A stretch of DNA of 64,000 bases, taken from Qipengyuania spongiae. GTDB lineage: Bacteria > Pseudomonadota > Alphaproteobacteria > Sphingomonadales > Sphingomonadaceae. The stretch is from positions 1,808,501 to 1,872,500 of the forward strand of contig NZ_CP092471.1 in assembly GCF_026168555.1 (NCBI RefSeq). Reading direction: 5' to 3'. Position numbers and translations under genes: made by a program. The notes under the pieces were generated by a model that saw only the letters and a list, made by a program, of their open reading frames with translations, did no database searches and was not told where the DNA came from. This document shows, one piece after another, positions 57,392 through 64,000 of the stretch (its first letter is position 1; each line of letters begins with the position of its first letter).

Positions 57392-59563
57392 ATGGGAATT
57401 CTCGGCTCCTTCGGCAAACGCGATCCGGCCTCTTCGTCGGGCGCCGGCGATTCGCTTTCCCTCGCCGACCGTCTGGACGGATCGCATTTCAGCGAATGGG
57501 ACGAACGGCTCGACCGCGTCGACCGCTACGTAGCCGAACGGGAACGCGAGAAGCGTTGGTGGCGGCTGAATTACTGGCGTGAACGGCACAAGCGCTGGTG
57601 GGCGGTGCGGATCGTTGCCCTTCTGTTGTTCGTCTTCATGCTGTTGTTCGCCTGGCTCGCGGTCACCGCGCCGCTCGGCAAATCATTGAAGCCGATCGTG
57701 CCGCCGCAGATCACCCTGCTTGCTGCCGACGGCACCCCGATCGCCCGCAACGGCGCGATCATCGACGAGCCGGTCGACATCGACACCCTGCCGCCTCACG
57801 TGGTCGAGGCGTTCCTCGCGATCGAGGATCGGCGGTTCTACGATCACTGGGGAATCGATCCGCGGGGGATCGCCCGGGCAGCGTTCACTGGCGTGGGCGG
57901 GGGCAGCACGATTACCCAGCAGCTCGCCAAGTTCACCTTCCTAACGCCGGAGCAGACTCTCACCCGCAAGGCCCGCGAGGCTCTGATCGCTCTGTGGCTG
58001 GAAGGCTGGCTGACCAAGGACGAGATTCTCGAGCGCTACCTCTCCAACGCCTATTTTGGCGACAATGTGTACGGGCTGCGCGCGGCGAGCATGCATTTCT
58101 TCTTTCGGCGGCCGGAGAGGCTGACGTCCGAACAGGCGGCCATGCTGGCCGGGCTGTTGCAGGCGCCCAGCCGCTACAATCCAGTGAAGCATTACGACCG
58201 TGCCGAGGAGCGCTGGCGGCTGGTCGTCGGCGCGATGGCGGATGCCGGCTACATCTCGCAGGCCGAAGCGGCGGCGATGCGTCCCCCCGCCCTCGATGTG
58301 CGCGTGGAGAACGATCTGCCCACCGGCACCTATTTTGCGGACTGGGCGTTGCCTCAGGCGCGCGAACTCGAAGGGGCGGATCGCGGCGCCTATGCGCGCC
58401 ACGCTCTAACCACCACGCTCGATAGCCGGTTGCAGAACATCGCCCGGCGCGTCACCTCCTCGGCCCCGCTCGGCAGCGCGCAGGTGGCGCTGGTCGCGAT
58501 GCGGCCGAATGGCGAGGTCGTCGCGATGATCGGCGGCAAGGACTACGAGAAATCGACGTTCAACCGGGCTACGCAGGCCAAACGCCAGCCGGGATCAACC
58601 TTCAAGCTGTTCGTTTATCTCGCCGCGTTGCGCGACGGCTGGAGACCCGACGACCTGATCGACAACACCGAGATCACCGAAGGTAGCTATCGCCCGCGCA
58701 ACTCGCGCGGTCGCTATTCCGAGACGCTGACCCTGCGCGAAGCCTTCGCCCAGTCGAGCAATGTCGCGGCGGTGCGGCTCTTGAGCGCGGTGGGCAGCGA
58801 CGCCGTGATCGAGACCGCGCGCGACCTCGGCGTAACCTCGCCGATGGAAGCGGGCGATCCCACTCTGGCGCTCGGCACCTCGACCATGTCGCTGATGGAG
58901 CTCACCGCCGCCTATGCCGGGATCGCCGGCAATCGCTTCCCGGTCCGCCCCAGCGCCTTCGTCCGGCCCGAGCAGGGCTGGGTTGCGAGGCTGGTCGATG
59001 GGCCCGACAGCCTTTCCGGGAGCACGCATCGCGAGATGGAGGAAATGCTGCGCCGGGTGGTCAATTCGGGCACCGGCCGCGCGGCAAGGCTGAACGTGCC
59101 CAATTTTGGCAAGACTGGCACCACGCAGGACAATCGCGATGCGCTGTTTGTGGGTTATGCCAACGGGCTCGTGGTCGGTGTATGGATCGGCAATGATGAC
59201 AATTCGCCGCTCGCCGGGATCAGCGGCGGCGGTCTACCCGCGCGCATCTGGCGCGACTTCATGCGGCAGGCGACCGGTGCCGCTCTCGCGCCGCGATCCG
59301 ATCCGACGACCGCGCCCGATCCCGGCGGCCCGGTCGAGCCGCTCGACGTGCCCGAGATCGGCGATATTCCCTTGGGCGAAGACGGTCGTCTGCGCGTACG
59401 CGAGGGCGAGGTCATTTATTCGACCGATATCGGCGGCGCACCGGTCGATGTCCGGGTGGGCGGGGATGGCGTCCGGGTCGATGCCCAACAGATCGAGGAA
59501 GCCCGCCGCCGCGCCGAAGAGGAGGTTCAGGCGCGCCTCCAACCCGACCGTTCCGAGGAGTAA
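57392..59563 (+). CDS. Class A penicillin-binding protein (PBP1A-like)
   Basis: A 723-residue bifunctional peptidoglycan synthase: a polar N-terminal ~70 residues, TM anchor (IVALLLFVFMLLFAWLAV), GT51 glycosyltransferase with AFLAIEDRRFYDHWGIDPRGIARA and GGSTITQQLAKF, and a transpeptidase with STFK near residue 403, SSN near 457 and KTG near 573. It acts at the inner membrane's outer face. The N-terminal cytoplasmic tail is longer than minimal. Stands as a single gene. Confidence 0.95.
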   Translation: MGILGSFGKRDPASSSGAGDSLSLADRLDGSHFSEWDERLDRVDRYVAEREREKRWWRLNYWRERHKRWWAVRIVALLLFVFMLLFAWLAVTAPLGKSLKPIVPPQITLLAADGTPIARNGAIIDEPVDIDTLPPHVVEAFLAIEDRRFYDHWGIDPRGIARAAFTGVGGGSTITQQLAKFTFLTPEQTLTRKAREALIALWLEGWLTKDEILERYLSNAYFGDNVYGLRAASMHFFFRRPERLTSEQAAMLAGLLQAPSRYNPVKHYDRAEERWRLVVGAMADAGYISQAEAAAMRPPALDVRVENDLPTGTYFADWALPQARELEGADRGAYARHALTTTLDSRLQNIARRVTSSAPLGSAQVALVAMRPNGEVVAMIGGKDYEKSTFNRATQAKRQPGSTFKLFVYLAALRDGWRPDDLIDNTEITEGSYRPRNSRGRYSETLTLREAFAQSSNVAAVRLLSAVGSDAVIETARDLGVTSPMEAGDPTLALGTSTMSLMELTAAYAGIAGNRFPVRPSAFVRPEQGWVARLVDGPDSLSGSTHREMEEMLRRVVNSGTGRAARLNVPNFGKTGTTQDNRDALFVGYANGLVVGVWIGNDDNSPLAGISGGGLPARIWRDFMRQATGAALAPRSDPTTAPDPGGPVEPLDVPEIGDIPLGEDGRLRVREGEVIYSTDIGGAPVDVRVGGDGVRVDAQQIEEARRRAEEEVQARLQPDRSEE

Positions 59564-59567
59564 ATCT

Positions 59568-59981
59568 CTAGGCTGCGGGCTCGGTGATCATCACGTTCAT
59601 CACCGCGCTCGCAATCGGTTTGGTCCGGTCGTCCTGCCATGCCTCGACCGAGATGTTGGCGGTGCGACGGCCCAGCTTGACGATCCGCGCGCTCGCGAAG
59701 CTCGGCTTCTCCTTGCCGCTGCGCAGGAACTGAACGGTGATATTGATCGGCTTCATTCCGGCCTCGCGCCCGTCCTGCGCCAACCGGGCGCGCAACGCGC
59801 CGTAGCCCGCCGTTTCCAGCAGACCGCTGATCGCGCCGCCGTGGAGCGCGCCGGGGCGACCGAGCACCGCCTCCGAAAAGGCGACGCGGACCACCGGTAC
59901 CCTGTCTTCCCAGCGATCGACCGAGATGCCGAGCGATCGGGCATAGGGCGTCAGAACGCGGATATCGGGCGTATCAGACAT
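59568..59981 (-). CDS. PaaI-family hotdog thioesterase
   Basis: A 137-residue protein: LHGGAISGLLETAGYGALRARL is the hotdog helix with the catalytic-type acidic residue, and NITVQFLRSGKEKPSFASARIVKLGRRTA is the strand region. It overlaps the next PaaI gene by eight bases, so the two paralogues are coupled. Confidence 0.88.
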   Translation of the reverse strand: MSDTPDIRVLTPYARSLGISVDRWEDRVPVVRVAFSEAVLGRPGALHGGAISGLLETAGYGALRARLAQDGREAGMKPINITVQFLRSGKEKPSFASARIVKLGRRTANISVEAWQDDRTKPIASAVMNVMITEPAA

Positions 59982-60459
59982 TCGCCGCGCCTTCCGCGGG
60001 AAGCGCGACCGTGCGCGCGACGATGTTCATGAAGACGCCCTGGATGTGCGCCACCGGATCGTCGGGATCGCCATCATGCGCGACTCCGCGCACGAAGAAG
60101 GCGGAGCGGGTCGAGCGATAGCACTGCGCACGCCCGAACACGCTCATGCGTTCGCGGGCGGGGCGGGTGTAGTCGACCCGCAAATCGAGCGTGGCGATCG
60201 CGCGGAAGGTGTTCATCCGGGTCCAGATCGAGAGGCCGCTGGCCATGTCCATCAGGCTGACGATCGGTCCCGAGGCGAGCACTTCGCGCCCGTCTTCGCC
60301 GAGCAGATCGGCGCGCCAGGGCAGTTCCAGCTCGACCCAGTCCTCGCCATGCGCGTTGTAGCGCAGGCCCAGCCAGCCATTATGCGCCCGCGCCATCAGG
60401 AAAGGGGCGGCCTTGGCCGGATCGAAGACCGGATCGGATGGGGCGGGATCGTCGCTCAT
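59974..60459 (-). CDS. PaaI-family hotdog thioesterase
   Basis: A 161-residue paralogue: HNGWLGLRYNAHGEDWVELELPW, GPIVSLMDMASGLSIWTRMN (hotdog helix) and ATLDLRVDYTRPARERMSVFGRAQCYR. Start ATG 60459, the first canonical start giving a standard N-terminus; a GTG lies at 60471. Pair of thioesterases may act on related acyl-CoA substrates. Confidence 0.88.
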   Translation of the reverse strand: MSDDPAPSDPVFDPAKAAPFLMARAHNGWLGLRYNAHGEDWVELELPWRADLLGEDGREVLASGPIVSLMDMASGLSIWTRMNTFRAIATLDLRVDYTRPARERMSVFGRAQCYRSTRSAFFVRGVAHDGDPDDPVAHIQGVFMNIVARTVALPAEGAANV

Positions 60460-60592
60460 TGCGGGCGCCACGTGCCGCCGGCCCGCCCGGATTACAATGT
60501 TTTAATTTCTCGTGGGTCCCCTTGGCCATCAGAACCGGGGAAGCCGCAAATCCGGACAGGGGTCAGGGGCGGCATTCTAAGGGGAATACACA

Positions 60593-60754
60593 ATGGACCT
60601 GCCAAGGATCGATCTCGATAGCCTGCCTGGCCTCGACGTGGCTCAGGGCATTTTCGGCAGCCTGTCCGACCTCGCGACGGCAACCGTGGACGACCGGATG
60701 ATCGTGCTTATGGTCTACGTCTACGACGCCATGAACCCAGGTCTCGGCGCCTGA
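60593..60754 (+). CDS. Small peptide (53 aa), possible precursor
   Basis: A 53-codon frame with AAGGGG nine bases before ATG 60593. The sequence has an acidic, Leu/Asp-rich front half (MDLPRIDLDSLPGLDVAQGI), then LSDLATATVDDRM, then a hydrophobic stretch rich in Val/Met/Tyr (IVLMVYVYDAM) and a short NPGLGA end. The next gene starts only nine bases later, so it should be co-translated or at least co-transcribed with the two cupin-like genes. It could be a RiPP-type precursor (leader, then a core of aliphatic and aromatic residues) or a small structural partner. No family recognised. Confidence 0.6.
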   Translation: MDLPRIDLDSLPGLDVAQGIFGSLSDLATATVDDRMIVLMVYVYDAMNPGLGA

Positions 60755-60763
60755 CGCTCGTCC

Positions 60764-61744
60764 ATGCGGATCGATCCGATCCTATCATCGCTGCGGCGGG
60801 ATGCCGGGCCGCAGAGGCGTGCCCAGCGGGTGCTTGAGGCGGTGCGGGCCGAATGGAAAGCGGATCGCGGCGTGTCCGAAGTGCTGGCCCAGTTCGTCGA
60901 TTACGGCGCGGGACGGCCGCTTGCCGACTGCCCCACGCTCGCGGCGGTGGCCTGCGATTGCGGACGCGCGTCGGCCTTTCTCGCGCCACTGATCAATGGC
61001 CTGGTGGCGGAACTTTCCCGCCACCCGATCGGCCACGTCCCGTTCCGGCATCAATATGCTTCGGGCATCTCGGTGCTCCTGCTTGGCGAAAGCGGGCGCG
61101 CGACGCTGTCGCTGGTGACCTACCAGAACGAACTCCTGTCCGGCAGGTCGCCGGCGCAGAGCGTGTGCTTCACCGGCGGCGAGCGATACGAGTGCTATCT
61201 CGCAGGGAGCGCGGAGGCGTGCATTGTTGAGGCTTGCGGCGAGACGGACCAAGGGGCAAGGCTGGTGGAGCGCCAACTCGGGCTGGATGCGGGCGAAACG
61301 CTCGCGCTGGATGGTGCGCGGGTGACCAAGCTCGTCACCCGCGTGCCGCAGCGTCTGGTCATGCTGCGGCTGTCGCGCGTTCCGGAAAGGCCCCCTCCCG
61401 CTCGCGAATATCGCCTTGCGGACGGCAGGCTGATCCACCGCGCAAGCGGCAGCAGGCGCGAAAGCCGCGAGGAGATGATGATCGCCCTGCTCGGCCGGAT
61501 GGGGCGGACCGATGCGGGCGAGGTCTTCGCGAACCTAGCCGGCAGCGCCGGCAGCGAGCATCTGCGGTGGGAGGCGCTGCGCCAGTGCCTGTCGCTCGGC
61601 ACGGCCGAAGGCTTCGCGGCGCTGTCGCGTCTCGCGGCCGACCGGGATAATGTCCTTGCCGCGCCTGCCGCCGCCTTGCGGTCGCGATTGGCCTCCATCC
61701 ACCCCGAGCTTGCATGTCTGGAGACCGGGCCGTGCCGCGCGTGA
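60764..61744 (+). CDS. Cupin-like protein, first of a pair (unassigned)
   Basis: A 326-residue soluble protein. A helical start (residues 1-85) carries CPTLAAVACDCG (C56, C64, C66) and LAPLINGLVAELSRHP; a strand-rich core (residues about 88-205) contains GHVPFRHQ, SGISVLLL, RYECYLAG and QRLVMLRLSR, resembling a cupin fold with a possible His site at H91/H96; and the C-terminal ~110 residues are helical with repeat-like EVFANLAG, WEALRQCLSLG and EGFAALSRLA segments reminiscent of HEAT-type helices. It follows the 53-aa ORF at nine bases and overlaps the next gene. It may bind or modify the small peptide; that is inference. Confidence 0.65.
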   Translation: MRIDPILSSLRRDAGPQRRAQRVLEAVRAEWKADRGVSEVLAQFVDYGAGRPLADCPTLAAVACDCGRASAFLAPLINGLVAELSRHPIGHVPFRHQYASGISVLLLGESGRATLSLVTYQNELLSGRSPAQSVCFTGGERYECYLAGSAEACIVEACGETDQGARLVERQLGLDAGETLALDGARVTKLVTRVPQRLVMLRLSRVPERPPPAREYRLADGRLIHRASGSRRESREEMMIALLGRMGRTDAGEVFANLAGSAGSEHLRWEALRQCLSLGTAEGFAALSRLAADRDNVLAAPAAALRSRLASIHPELACLETGPCRA

Positions 61745-62625
61745 TCGAATGCGCCAGCGCCGGCGAGGCCTCACTGCAAGAGAGCATCGACGCACTTGCC
61801 GGGGCTGGCTTCGATCCCGGTGACGAGGACAGCCTGGCCCTTGGTGCCTCCATCCTTCGCCGCCTCGCCAACAACCGCCGCTTTCTCGGCGACCTGATGA
61901 TCGACTGCCTGCGCGAACGCCATCGGCACCATGAACCGGCCAGTGCCTACGGCCCCCAGGCGATCGTGCTCGGTCCGTTGCGGAACGGTTCTTTCCTGCG
62001 CGCCAATATCTGGCCGTCGGAGCGCGATGGCTGTTTCCGGGCGAGCGGCGCGCACAGCTTCGTCTACGGAATGCCGCACGATCACAATTTCAGCTTCCTG
62101 ACAGTCGGCTATTTCGGGCCCGGCTACGAAAGCGACTATTACGAATACGATTACGCGGCGACCGCCGGCTATGTCGGTGAGACGCCCGGTCTTCGCTTCG
62201 TCGAGCGCTCGGCGCTGGGCGAGGGGCGGATGCTGCTCTACCGCGCCCATCGCGACATACATTCGCAGCTTCCCGCCGCTTCGATGTCGGTCTCGCTCAA
62301 CATCCTGCATATCGATCCGGGGCAGGGCTGGTTCGACCAGTACGGCTTCGATCTCGAGAGCGGAGCGATTACCGGCCTGCTCAATCCGACCTCGACCGAG
62401 GTTTTCCTGCGCTGCGCCGTCGGGTTGGGCGATGCGGCGGCGGTCGATCTTGCCGAAGATTTTGGCCGCCATCATCCGAGCGACCGGATGCGGCTTGCAA
62501 GTTACGAAGCACGGGCATCGCTGGGCGGAGATGAGGATGGCTTGTGGCGCGAGGCGGAACGCTCGGGCAGCCTGATGGTGGCGGAGGAAGCCACGGCCCG
62601 CCGCCGCGCTCTGGAGAGAAACTAG
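61714..62625 (+). CDS. Cupin-like protein, second of a pair (unassigned)
   Basis: A 303-residue protein similar in layout to its neighbour: helical N-terminus, a cupin-like core with GMPHDHNFSFLTVGYFGPG (H122 and H124 as an HxH metal pair), a Tyr-rich DYYEYDYAATAGY strand and GRMLLYRAHRDIHSQLP (H179 or H183 as third ligand) then SMSVSLNIL, and a helical C-terminus (VFLRCAVGLGDAAAVDLAEDFGRHH). The HxH plus later His is the metal triad of cupin-type dioxygenases and isomerases. GTG codons at 61732 and 61741 are alternative starts; overlap with the first gene is 31 bases from ATG 61714. Reaction unknown. Confidence 0.65.
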   Translation: MSGDRAVPRVIECASAGEASLQESIDALAGAGFDPGDEDSLALGASILRRLANNRRFLGDLMIDCLRERHRHHEPASAYGPQAIVLGPLRNGSFLRANIWPSERDGCFRASGAHSFVYGMPHDHNFSFLTVGYFGPGYESDYYEYDYAATAGYVGETPGLRFVERSALGEGRMLLYRAHRDIHSQLPAASMSVSLNILHIDPGQGWFDQYGFDLESGAITGLLNPTSTEVFLRCAVGLGDAAAVDLAEDFGRHHPSDRMRLASYEARASLGGDEDGLWREAERSGSLMVAEEATARRRALERN

Positions 62626-63107
62626 AACGCGGCTCCGGCCAGACGGTCGATCGCCGCTTGCAGGATCACGGCCGCGGCGTGGCTGTCGATCCGTTCGGCC
62701 CGCTTCGCGCGGCTCATGTCCTGTCCGATCATTGCTGCCTCCGCGCTGGTGGTTGACCACCGCTCGTCCCACAGGAGAACCGGCAGGCCGAAGGCTTGGG
62801 CCAGGTTTCTCGCATAGGCGCGGCTCGCCTGGCTGCGCGGGCCTTCGCTCCCGTCCATATTGCGCGGAAGGCCGATCACGATGCCGGCGACCTTGCGCGC
62901 GTCCACGATTTCGCGCAGCTTTCCACTGTCCTTGCCGAACTTTCCGCGCGGAATGGTCTTGCCTGCCGTCGCGAAGCGCCAGCCGGCATCGCAGGTGGCA
63001 ATACCGATCGTGCGCGTGCCGAGGTCGAGCGCCAGCAAAACGCCGCCATCAGCGAGAGCGTCGTCGAACTCGCCCGCGCTGTCGGTTACGAGCGCGCGTT
63101 CAGCCAT
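62622..63107 (-). CDS. ruvX: Holliday junction resolvase-like RuvX/YqgF
   Basis: A 161-residue RNase H-like protein: LALDLGTRTIGIATCD (first Asp), VIGLPRNMDGSEGPRS, LLWDERWSTTSAEAAM (Glu) and RIDSHAAAVILQAAI (final Asp). Essential in many bacteria for 16S pre-rRNA 5' processing. Start ATG 63107 overlaps the DUF3089 stop by 22 bases, so it may be translated from the same message. Confidence 0.93.
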   Translation of the reverse strand: MAERALVTDSAGEFDDALADGGVLLALDLGTRTIGIATCDAGWRFATAGKTIPRGKFGKDSGKLREIVDARKVAGIVIGLPRNMDGSEGPRSQASRAYARNLAQAFGLPVLLWDERWSTTSAEAAMIGQDMSRAKRAERIDSHAAAVILQAAIDRLAGAAF

Positions 63108-64000
63108 GCCCGCACCCGCTCCACAACATCGGCCTGAACGTTGGCCCAGAACAGCGGCAGATCGTAAACATGGTAATTGCTGCCCGGCAGTACGCCTTCG
63201 CCCAGTTCGGGCGGGTCGCCGATCAGCAGCAGACCACGCTCGTCGCACCGAGCCGGGACGGCTCCGGGCACCAGATCGCCGCGCGTCAGCCCCTCGTCGG
63301 GAACCAGCGTGCCGAGATTGTCGGAGGCCGGTGCCGATCCGCCGACCGCGCCGGTGAGGGGGTTGGTGCACAAGATCGGTCCGTCGCCGCGCTGCTCGCC
63401 GTCGAAGCCCGGCGTTGTCGAATAGCGGCGCATTAGAAAATCGGGATCGCCGTCGTCGGCGAAGGAGGACCAGGACTGGATGCAGCCCACCTGACCCTTT
63501 GCGCCACATGGGGGCAGGGGCAGTTCGGGCAGATCGTGCTCCACCGAGATCGGCCAGCCCGGCGCATAAACCGCAGCGATGCGATCCCGCAACGGCGTGT
63601 CGCCAACCTCGGAAATCAGCAGGCGCAGAACGTGAAGCGCACCCTGGCTATGACCGGCGAGGACGATCGGCTTCTCGGGATCGACACTGTCGAGAAAGAA
63701 CCGGAAAGCGTTGCGTACGTCCGCATAGGCGGCGTCGATCGCCATCTGCGCTTCCGGCCGGTCGGTCAGGAACGCGCCGACGGCTGCCTGACGATAGCGC
63801 GGCGCCCAGATTTCGTCCGCCCGGTTGAACGGGCTGGCAAGTCCGCGAAGGAAGGTTCGTGCCCGCGCGTCGGTCTGGGTGTCGTCGAGGCTCGCGTTCC
63901 AGTCACCGCCCGCCTGAATGTAGCTGGTCGGTGGCACGAAGAAGACGGCGAAGGGCGGGGTCTCGCCGGTTCCGGCCGGTTCGGCGCTGCGCGAGCTCTG
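63086..64000 (-). CDS. DUF3089 alpha/beta hydrolase-type protein, partial
   Basis: The frame is open to the right edge, giving 304 visible residues without an in-window start. DUF3089 features: VFFVPPTSYIQAGGDWNASLDD, AYADVRNAFRFFLDS, the nucleophile elbow VLAGHSQGALHVLRLL (Ser in GHSQG), a middle with NPLTGAVGG, and LLLIGDPP toward the end. The Ser, with Asp and His further on (HVYD), suggests a lipase/esterase-like activity. Upstream of ruvX on the same strand. Confidence 0.88.
   Translation of the reverse strand, partial: QSSRSAEPAGTGETPPFAVFFVPPTSYIQAGGDWNASLDDTQTDARARTFLRGLASPFNRADEIWAPRYRQAAVGAFLTDRPEAQMAIDAAYADVRNAFRFFLDSVDPEKPIVLAGHSQGALHVLRLLISEVGDTPLRDRIAAVYAPGWPISVEHDLPELPLPPCGAKGQVGCIQSWSSFADDGDPDFLMRRYSTTPGFDGEQRGDGPILCTNPLTGAVGGSAPASDNLGTLVPDEGLTRGDLVPGAVPARCDERGLLLIGDPPELGEGVLPGSNYHVYDLPLFWANVQADVVERVRAWLNARS

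Follow-up and report, generated by a model that had tools for sequence, protein, structure and literature searches.

Several enzymes of the thiol-dioxygenase fold use small thiols, and the thiol dioxygenases include the cysteine, 3-mercaptopropionate and mercaptosuccinate dioxygenases, the plant cysteine oxidases and ADO. Ribosomally synthesized and post-translationally modified peptides (RiPPs) derive from precursors encoded by short open reading frames (ORFs) ahead of their enzymes, with a conserved N-terminal and a variable C-terminal part. Cupin-like proteins have also been placed among RiPP enzymes: PbsQ and BpmG are reported as JmjC hydroxylases of ornithine, whose pathway also involves MNIO, arginase and radical SAM enzymes (PMC12257519). 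Here we describe a locus that can be compared with each of these systems, a cassette of three genes, A, B and C, in a 64,000-nucleotide stretch of the Qipengyuania spongiae genome (contig NZ_CP092471.1, positions 1,808,501 to 1,872,500, hereafter the window). The three genes almost certainly form one functional unit, and we consider it probable that they constitute a RiPP-like cassette whose oxygenase pair is of a new type. Its parts, in window positions, are as follows.

60593-60754, plus strand: gene A, ATG start, a precursor-like peptide of 53 amino acids
60593-60661, plus strand: leader-like part of A, up to ...IFGS
60662-60751, plus strand: hydrophobic core-like part of A
60579-60584, plus strand: AAGGGG ribosome binding site of A, read from the sequence, eight bases upstream of the ATG
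60764-61744, plus strand: gene B, 326 amino acids, a degenerate thiol-dioxygenase-type cupin without histidine ligands and with C-terminal HEAT repeats
61732-62625, plus strand: gene C, most likely 297 amino acids from a GTG start, a thiol-dioxygenase-type cupin with His-x-His...His and a helical C-terminus
ATG at 61714, plus strand: start of a longer, 303-amino-acid reading of C

A is a real gene under purifying selection. An earlier sequence-only reading had singled it out as a small ORF with a clear AAGGGG site, nine bases ahead of a 326-residue gene, and the locus reads exactly so; G-rich sites precede A in many relatives as well. It stands beside C in all 47 near loci (44 by script; L020, L033 and L043 by reading), a count that takes loci with a near-full-length C match, excludes six with a partial C or with A alone, and includes one (L002) with a stop codon within C. 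Among 80 named loci, A is present in all 78 with enough upstream sequence (74 by script; L099, L113, L145 and L152 by eye), L121 and L142 being too short; the near and named sets share genomes, and their counts are not independent. Over 1,144 pairs of near genes, pN/pS of A is 0.42 overall, and by segment it is 0.31 in the leader, 0.25 in the DD...E stretch, 0.72 in the linker and 0.75 in the tail, ratios that are rough because synonymous sites are near saturation (pS ~0.64) and pairs overlap. The earlier suggestion that the peptide is a substrate or partner of the two large proteins is thus well supported as a functional link, by this conservation and selection and by the joint presence and loss described below.

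The placement of A recurs in more distant loci. When a hidden Markov model of 89 near A peptides was compared with 6,141 small ORFs from both strands of 42 distant loci, the best 26 matches (E up to 0.098) all lay 870-1170 bp before the C match, on its strand and directly before B, and the first misplaced match came at rank 27 (E 0.33). The 75 best rows of this search recovered A in position in 34 of the 42 loci; A-like peptides were seen by eye in five more (L070, L072, L166, L178 and L185), less certainly and with weak similarity. A B-profile match stands before 42 of 43 C copies in the distant loci; the exception is L176, where the sequence upstream is missing. A profile of 35 A peptides retrieved 835 proteins at E <= 1e-3, and the named proteins among the 120 matches listed are called 'hypothetical' or 'uncharacterized'.

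The three genes are also kept and lost together. A and C occur together in 39 of 60 genomes of the genus; one (G002) has A only, none has C only and 20 have neither (Fisher p 5e-15, uncorrected for kinship). Decay can be seen in progress: C is in pieces or shortened in three of the 39 (G006, G022 and G034) and in pieces in G133, from another genus of the family, and A persists in G022, G034 and G133 despite the broken C. In G002, vestiges of B (residues 1-120 and 272-307) and of C (252-300) lie beside A. At four decaying loci (L199, L200, L201 and L222) A is recognizable, C is in pieces or shortened and, in L201 and L222, B is shortened too. Across the genomes of the genus that were examined, the cassette occupies the same position, with thioesterase on one side and RuvX on the other. 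In three genomes without C (G003, G010 and G015) the matches to these neighbors stand 45-77 bp apart, as an empty site; in G004, also without C, RuvX falls outside the stretch examined. In the window, A-B-C has to itself the space between the following genes, all of which run on the opposite strand:

59568-60471, opposite strand: two hotdog-type thioesterase genes, flanking the cassette upstream
62625-63937, opposite strand: RuvX and DUF3089 genes, flanking it downstream

Within the family, 104 of 298 genomes (45 of 96 genera) carry C, most of them in one copy; in the order, 78 of 246 genomes do, two of these being weak partial matches. Samples of the class and phylum gave 5 of 385 (four in the genome's own family, own genome counted) and 10 of 299 (nine in that family), and the class of G843 gave 2 of 321, G843 counted. 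When proteins were searched with the Alteromonas sequence, those members beyond Sphingomonadales that bear an organism name came from Alteromonas, Pseudoalteromonas, Luteimonas, Lysobacter/Novilysobacter and Stenotrophomonas. At least 3,410 homologues of C were found at E <= 1e-3 among 8,000 scored, and one species-level genome collection holds 406 relatives. One of 72,556 plasmid records carries a relative, from Alteromonas; for a phage origin, 50,697 phage records gave no match, and of two pattern matches in viral contigs neither is a relative.

The sequence-only reading had given C as a 303-residue gene overlapping B. The overlap stands, and the start and length given for C probably do not: because most aligned relatives start at the position of the GTG at 61732 and the database entry for C itself has 297 amino acids, C is most likely of that length, and the overlap with B would therefore be 13 bases rather than 31. 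In confident structure predictions, C is a thiol-dioxygenase-type cupin (CDO/ADO type) with a helical C-terminus, and B repeats the helical front, cupin and helical end. Together with a profile-profile match of B to C (probability 94.5, E 7.8e-8, 262 columns), the two models bear out the shared architecture first noticed in the letters alone. So too with the HDH pair and later histidine seen there in C: H122, H124 and H183 (303-residue numbering) are the same in all 70 aligned sequences, and their match to the CDO histidines was judged by motif and strand order, not by superposed coordinates. The metal would presumably be iron. B is a paralogue of C without the metal ligands.

No model in Pfam, NCBIfam, PADLOC or PHROGs puts a name to C. 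C has no Pfam or NCBIfam family at E <= 1 and no credible sequence match in the PDB; the 70 members of its alignment give scattered weak NCBIfam matches, at best E 0.0071. For A, B and C of the window there is no match in NCBIfam or PHROGs and none among the PADLOC defence and toxin-antitoxin models at E <= 0.1, and the sole Pfam match is HEAT_2 in B, below its cut-off. In Pfam and NCBIfam, A, B and C matched neither an established RiPP maturase family nor an RRE domain, in keeping with the earlier remark that no maturase is recognizable; this counts against the known RiPP classes, not against the RiPP kind.

The peptides themselves divide into two parts. An N-terminal form, I-D-x-x-x-L-P-x-L-x-x-x-x-G-x-x-G-[STA], is common to many clades, and what follows it varies: DDRVVVIMVYVYE in Erythrobacteraceae, and QQEVGGxxCLGxxxxxxxY or other Val/Ile-rich forms elsewhere. 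For the 30 of 42 distant peptides that can be split at G[STA], near-distant identity averages 34.2% in the leader against 18.5% for shuffled sequences, and 20.5% in the core against 16.4%; the other 12 lack this step. The first ~23 residues are thus similar between clades and the hydrophobic end differs, as in RiPP precursors, so that a conserved leader with a variable core is what we find between clades. The peptides are acidic (mean net charge -4.9 near, -4.3 distant), and their C-terminal part is hydrophobic (mean maximum 9-residue hydropathy 2.7 near, 2.9 distant). Some loci hold several peptides: L067 is a tandem cassette of three different peptides and two B-C pairs, and L185 has two different peptides ahead of one pair. 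The conserved G-[STA] step is, we presume, reminiscent of double-glycine leaders. With a C39 peptidase in mind that might act at the G-S step of A, we note two C39 matches elsewhere in the genome, at G000:C1:2375031-2375438 and 194201-194611, in short frames of 286 and 251 amino acids.

We think it probable that A is modified by B and C. In the mechanism that we propose, A would be a precursor whose acidic first ~23 residues (LPxIDLxSLPxLDxxxGxFGS) serve as a recognition leader and whose hydrophobic C-terminal part is the core. The paralogues B and C would form a heteromer, in which the metal site of C (His122, His124 and His183) may oxidize a core residue and B, its metal ligands lost, probably holds the leader through its HEAT repeats. 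Cleavage of the matured peptide near the conserved Gly-Ser/Thr/Ala step could follow, after which it may act as a membrane-active or signalling peptide. On an Alteromonas plasmid, ABC export genes lie on both sides of the same pair. A bolder claim, which we judge about evenly balanced, is that the cassette stands for a new class of ribosomal peptide pathways: a cupin of thiol-dioxygenase fold that bears a metal, and a twin without one, each carrying HEAT-type helices, would oxidize a thiol-free aliphatic or aromatic core. Members of the class, concealed until now by the label 'transposase', would span Sphingomonadales and relatives in Stenotrophomonas/Lysobacter and Alteromonas/Pseudoalteromonas. 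To our knowledge, oxidation of a peptide core without a thiol would be unprecedented for this fold.

A DNA element accompanies the cassette:

60492-60509, plus strand: operator- or promoter-like AT-rich element TTACAATGTTTTAATTTC, ~100 bp before A

Of 73 named loci, 71 carry the element 80-104 bp before A, in the form TTACAATnTTTTAATTTC, with at most two mismatches to CAATNTTTTAATT. The 296 control windows all lack it; they are downstream and mostly coding, so that their composition differs. Looser forms occur at 17 of 42 distant loci and in 12 of 246 control windows. At up to three mismatches the genome holds the element once, at 60492-60509 and without mismatch, where 0.02 would be expected in the window; the reversed pattern, used as a control, has one match per strand in the genome. 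It is intact at the four decaying loci named above (L199-L201 and L222). We found no sigma-70-like promoter at 60400-62800 and no Rfam match at 59500-63500. At seven of the 42 distant loci, C is followed by a gene with an OmpR-type DNA-binding domain (PF00486). The domain begins no more than 45 bases past the end of C at L060, L066, L068, L169, L174 and L182, and 197 bases after C at L055, where the gene, alone of the seven, also matches a receiver domain. That an OmpR-type regulator binds the element is a guess.

The strongest outside hint of function comes from a single plasmid record:

L185:9767-17935, Alteromonas stellipolaris plasmid pASTE61-200: a cluster of two short unannotated peptides, B, C, and HlyD/MacB-type and ABC-2 transporter genes

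Here B and C come after two peptides, of 38 and 41 codons, that we identified by reading the sequence. HlyD-, ABC- and MacB-type genes lie upstream and an ABC ATPase and ABC-2 permease downstream; all of these genes but one are annotated as hypothetical. The plasmid's B exceeds the HEAT_2 cut-off and its C matches HEAT_2 below it; a weak PHROGs match of this C (E 0.064) we take as chance. The whole looks like a peptide export cluster.

Several observations weigh against a modified peptide. Within the near clade, Erythrobacteraceae, the core-like part is conserved (DDRxVVIMVYVYE), unlike the fast-evolving core of an antibiotic, so a dedicated signal fits better than an arms-race antibiotic. We found no residue common to the cores that would mark a reaction. 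Cysteine occurs in just 2 of the 95 near peptides and in 17 of the 42 distant ones; given its absence from 93 of the 95, thiol oxidation cannot be the general reaction if A is the substrate, and for C it is then unlikely. Apart from the Alteromonas plasmid, where 8 neighbors were scanned, no RRE, exporter or dedicated protease was recognized among the neighbors covered, which were 20 ORFs from loci in Sphingomonadales and elsewhere. When ORFs of at least 110 amino acids were clustered, no third gene proved to be shared by the 42 distant loci. The groups besides B and C cover 14 loci at most and seem to reflect local gene order or antisense frames. One distant locus (L198) has no recognizable A and another (L165) is doubtful. 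Finally, the empty site L218 keeps a two-mismatch form of the element in the same orientation, so the element may be older than the cassette or independent of it; the empty sites L215 and L216 lack it.

Some of these points would suit an unmodified A that serves as a small regulatory or structural partner, such as an activator, sensor subunit or membrane tether, of a B/C enzyme acting on a small molecule. The strong conservation of the C-terminal motif in the near clade is what a binding surface would show, the small-thiol substrates of several enzymes of this fold give a precedent, and no exporter was recognized beside the genes in the Sphingomonadales neighbors scanned. A binding end should be kept, however, and between clades it is the C-terminal part that changes and the N-terminal part that stays; L067 and L185, moreover, offer different peptides per pair. 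On balance we regard this partner role as unlikely, if the most serious alternative to modification. It is improbable that A acts, unmodified, as a hydrophobic toxin or bacteriocin that B and C neutralize or chaperone: its hydrophobic C-terminus, the exporters on the Alteromonas plasmid and the modular loss of the cassette speak for this, but immunity needs no invariant metal site, A outlasts B and C in G002, and neither PADLOC nor PHROGs matches the genes of the window. Peptides can also be feedstocks of cofactors, as PqqA is for PQQ and MftA for mycofactocin. The constant chromosomal place in the genus and the single copy in most positive family genomes would agree with such a role for A, yet it needs an invariant core, the cores differ between clades and the cassette is missing from about a third of the genus, which makes it more improbable still. 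A transposase, as NCBI names many relatives of C, is ruled out by the cupin fold of C and its fixed place between the thioesterase and RuvX genes, with one copy in most positive genomes and no transposase family match.

If A is indeed modified, the large unnamed family of C becomes a new class of peptide-modifying enzymes. It would show the thiol-dioxygenase fold to be able to act on thiol-free peptides, and the leader motif could be used to mine for more of them; B and C, of modest size, and the substrate of some 50 residues are easy to test.

Overall, C shares with the thiol dioxygenases a predicted cupin fold and a three-histidine site, but it has neither a sequence-family match nor a credible PDB sequence match to them, it carries extra C-terminal HEAT-like helices and a degenerate paralogue as partner, and the peptide linked to it mostly lacks cysteine. 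Like RiPP precursors, A is a short ORF before enzymes, with a conserved N-terminal and a variable C-terminal part and sometimes several copies per locus; unlike RiPP systems, A-B-C has no match to a known maturase or RRE, and exporter genes appear on the Alteromonas plasmid only. C as we propose it resembles PbsQ and BpmG in being a cupin-fold protein that acts on a ribosomal peptide, and differs from those hydroxylases (PMC12257519) in that the cupin pair is the sole enzyme seen in the Sphingomonadales cassette. Open-licence literature, searched by title and abstract, held nothing describing the A-B-C cassette. Leader-guided maturation of peptides is already known; the enzyme pair of B and C is, as far as we found, new.
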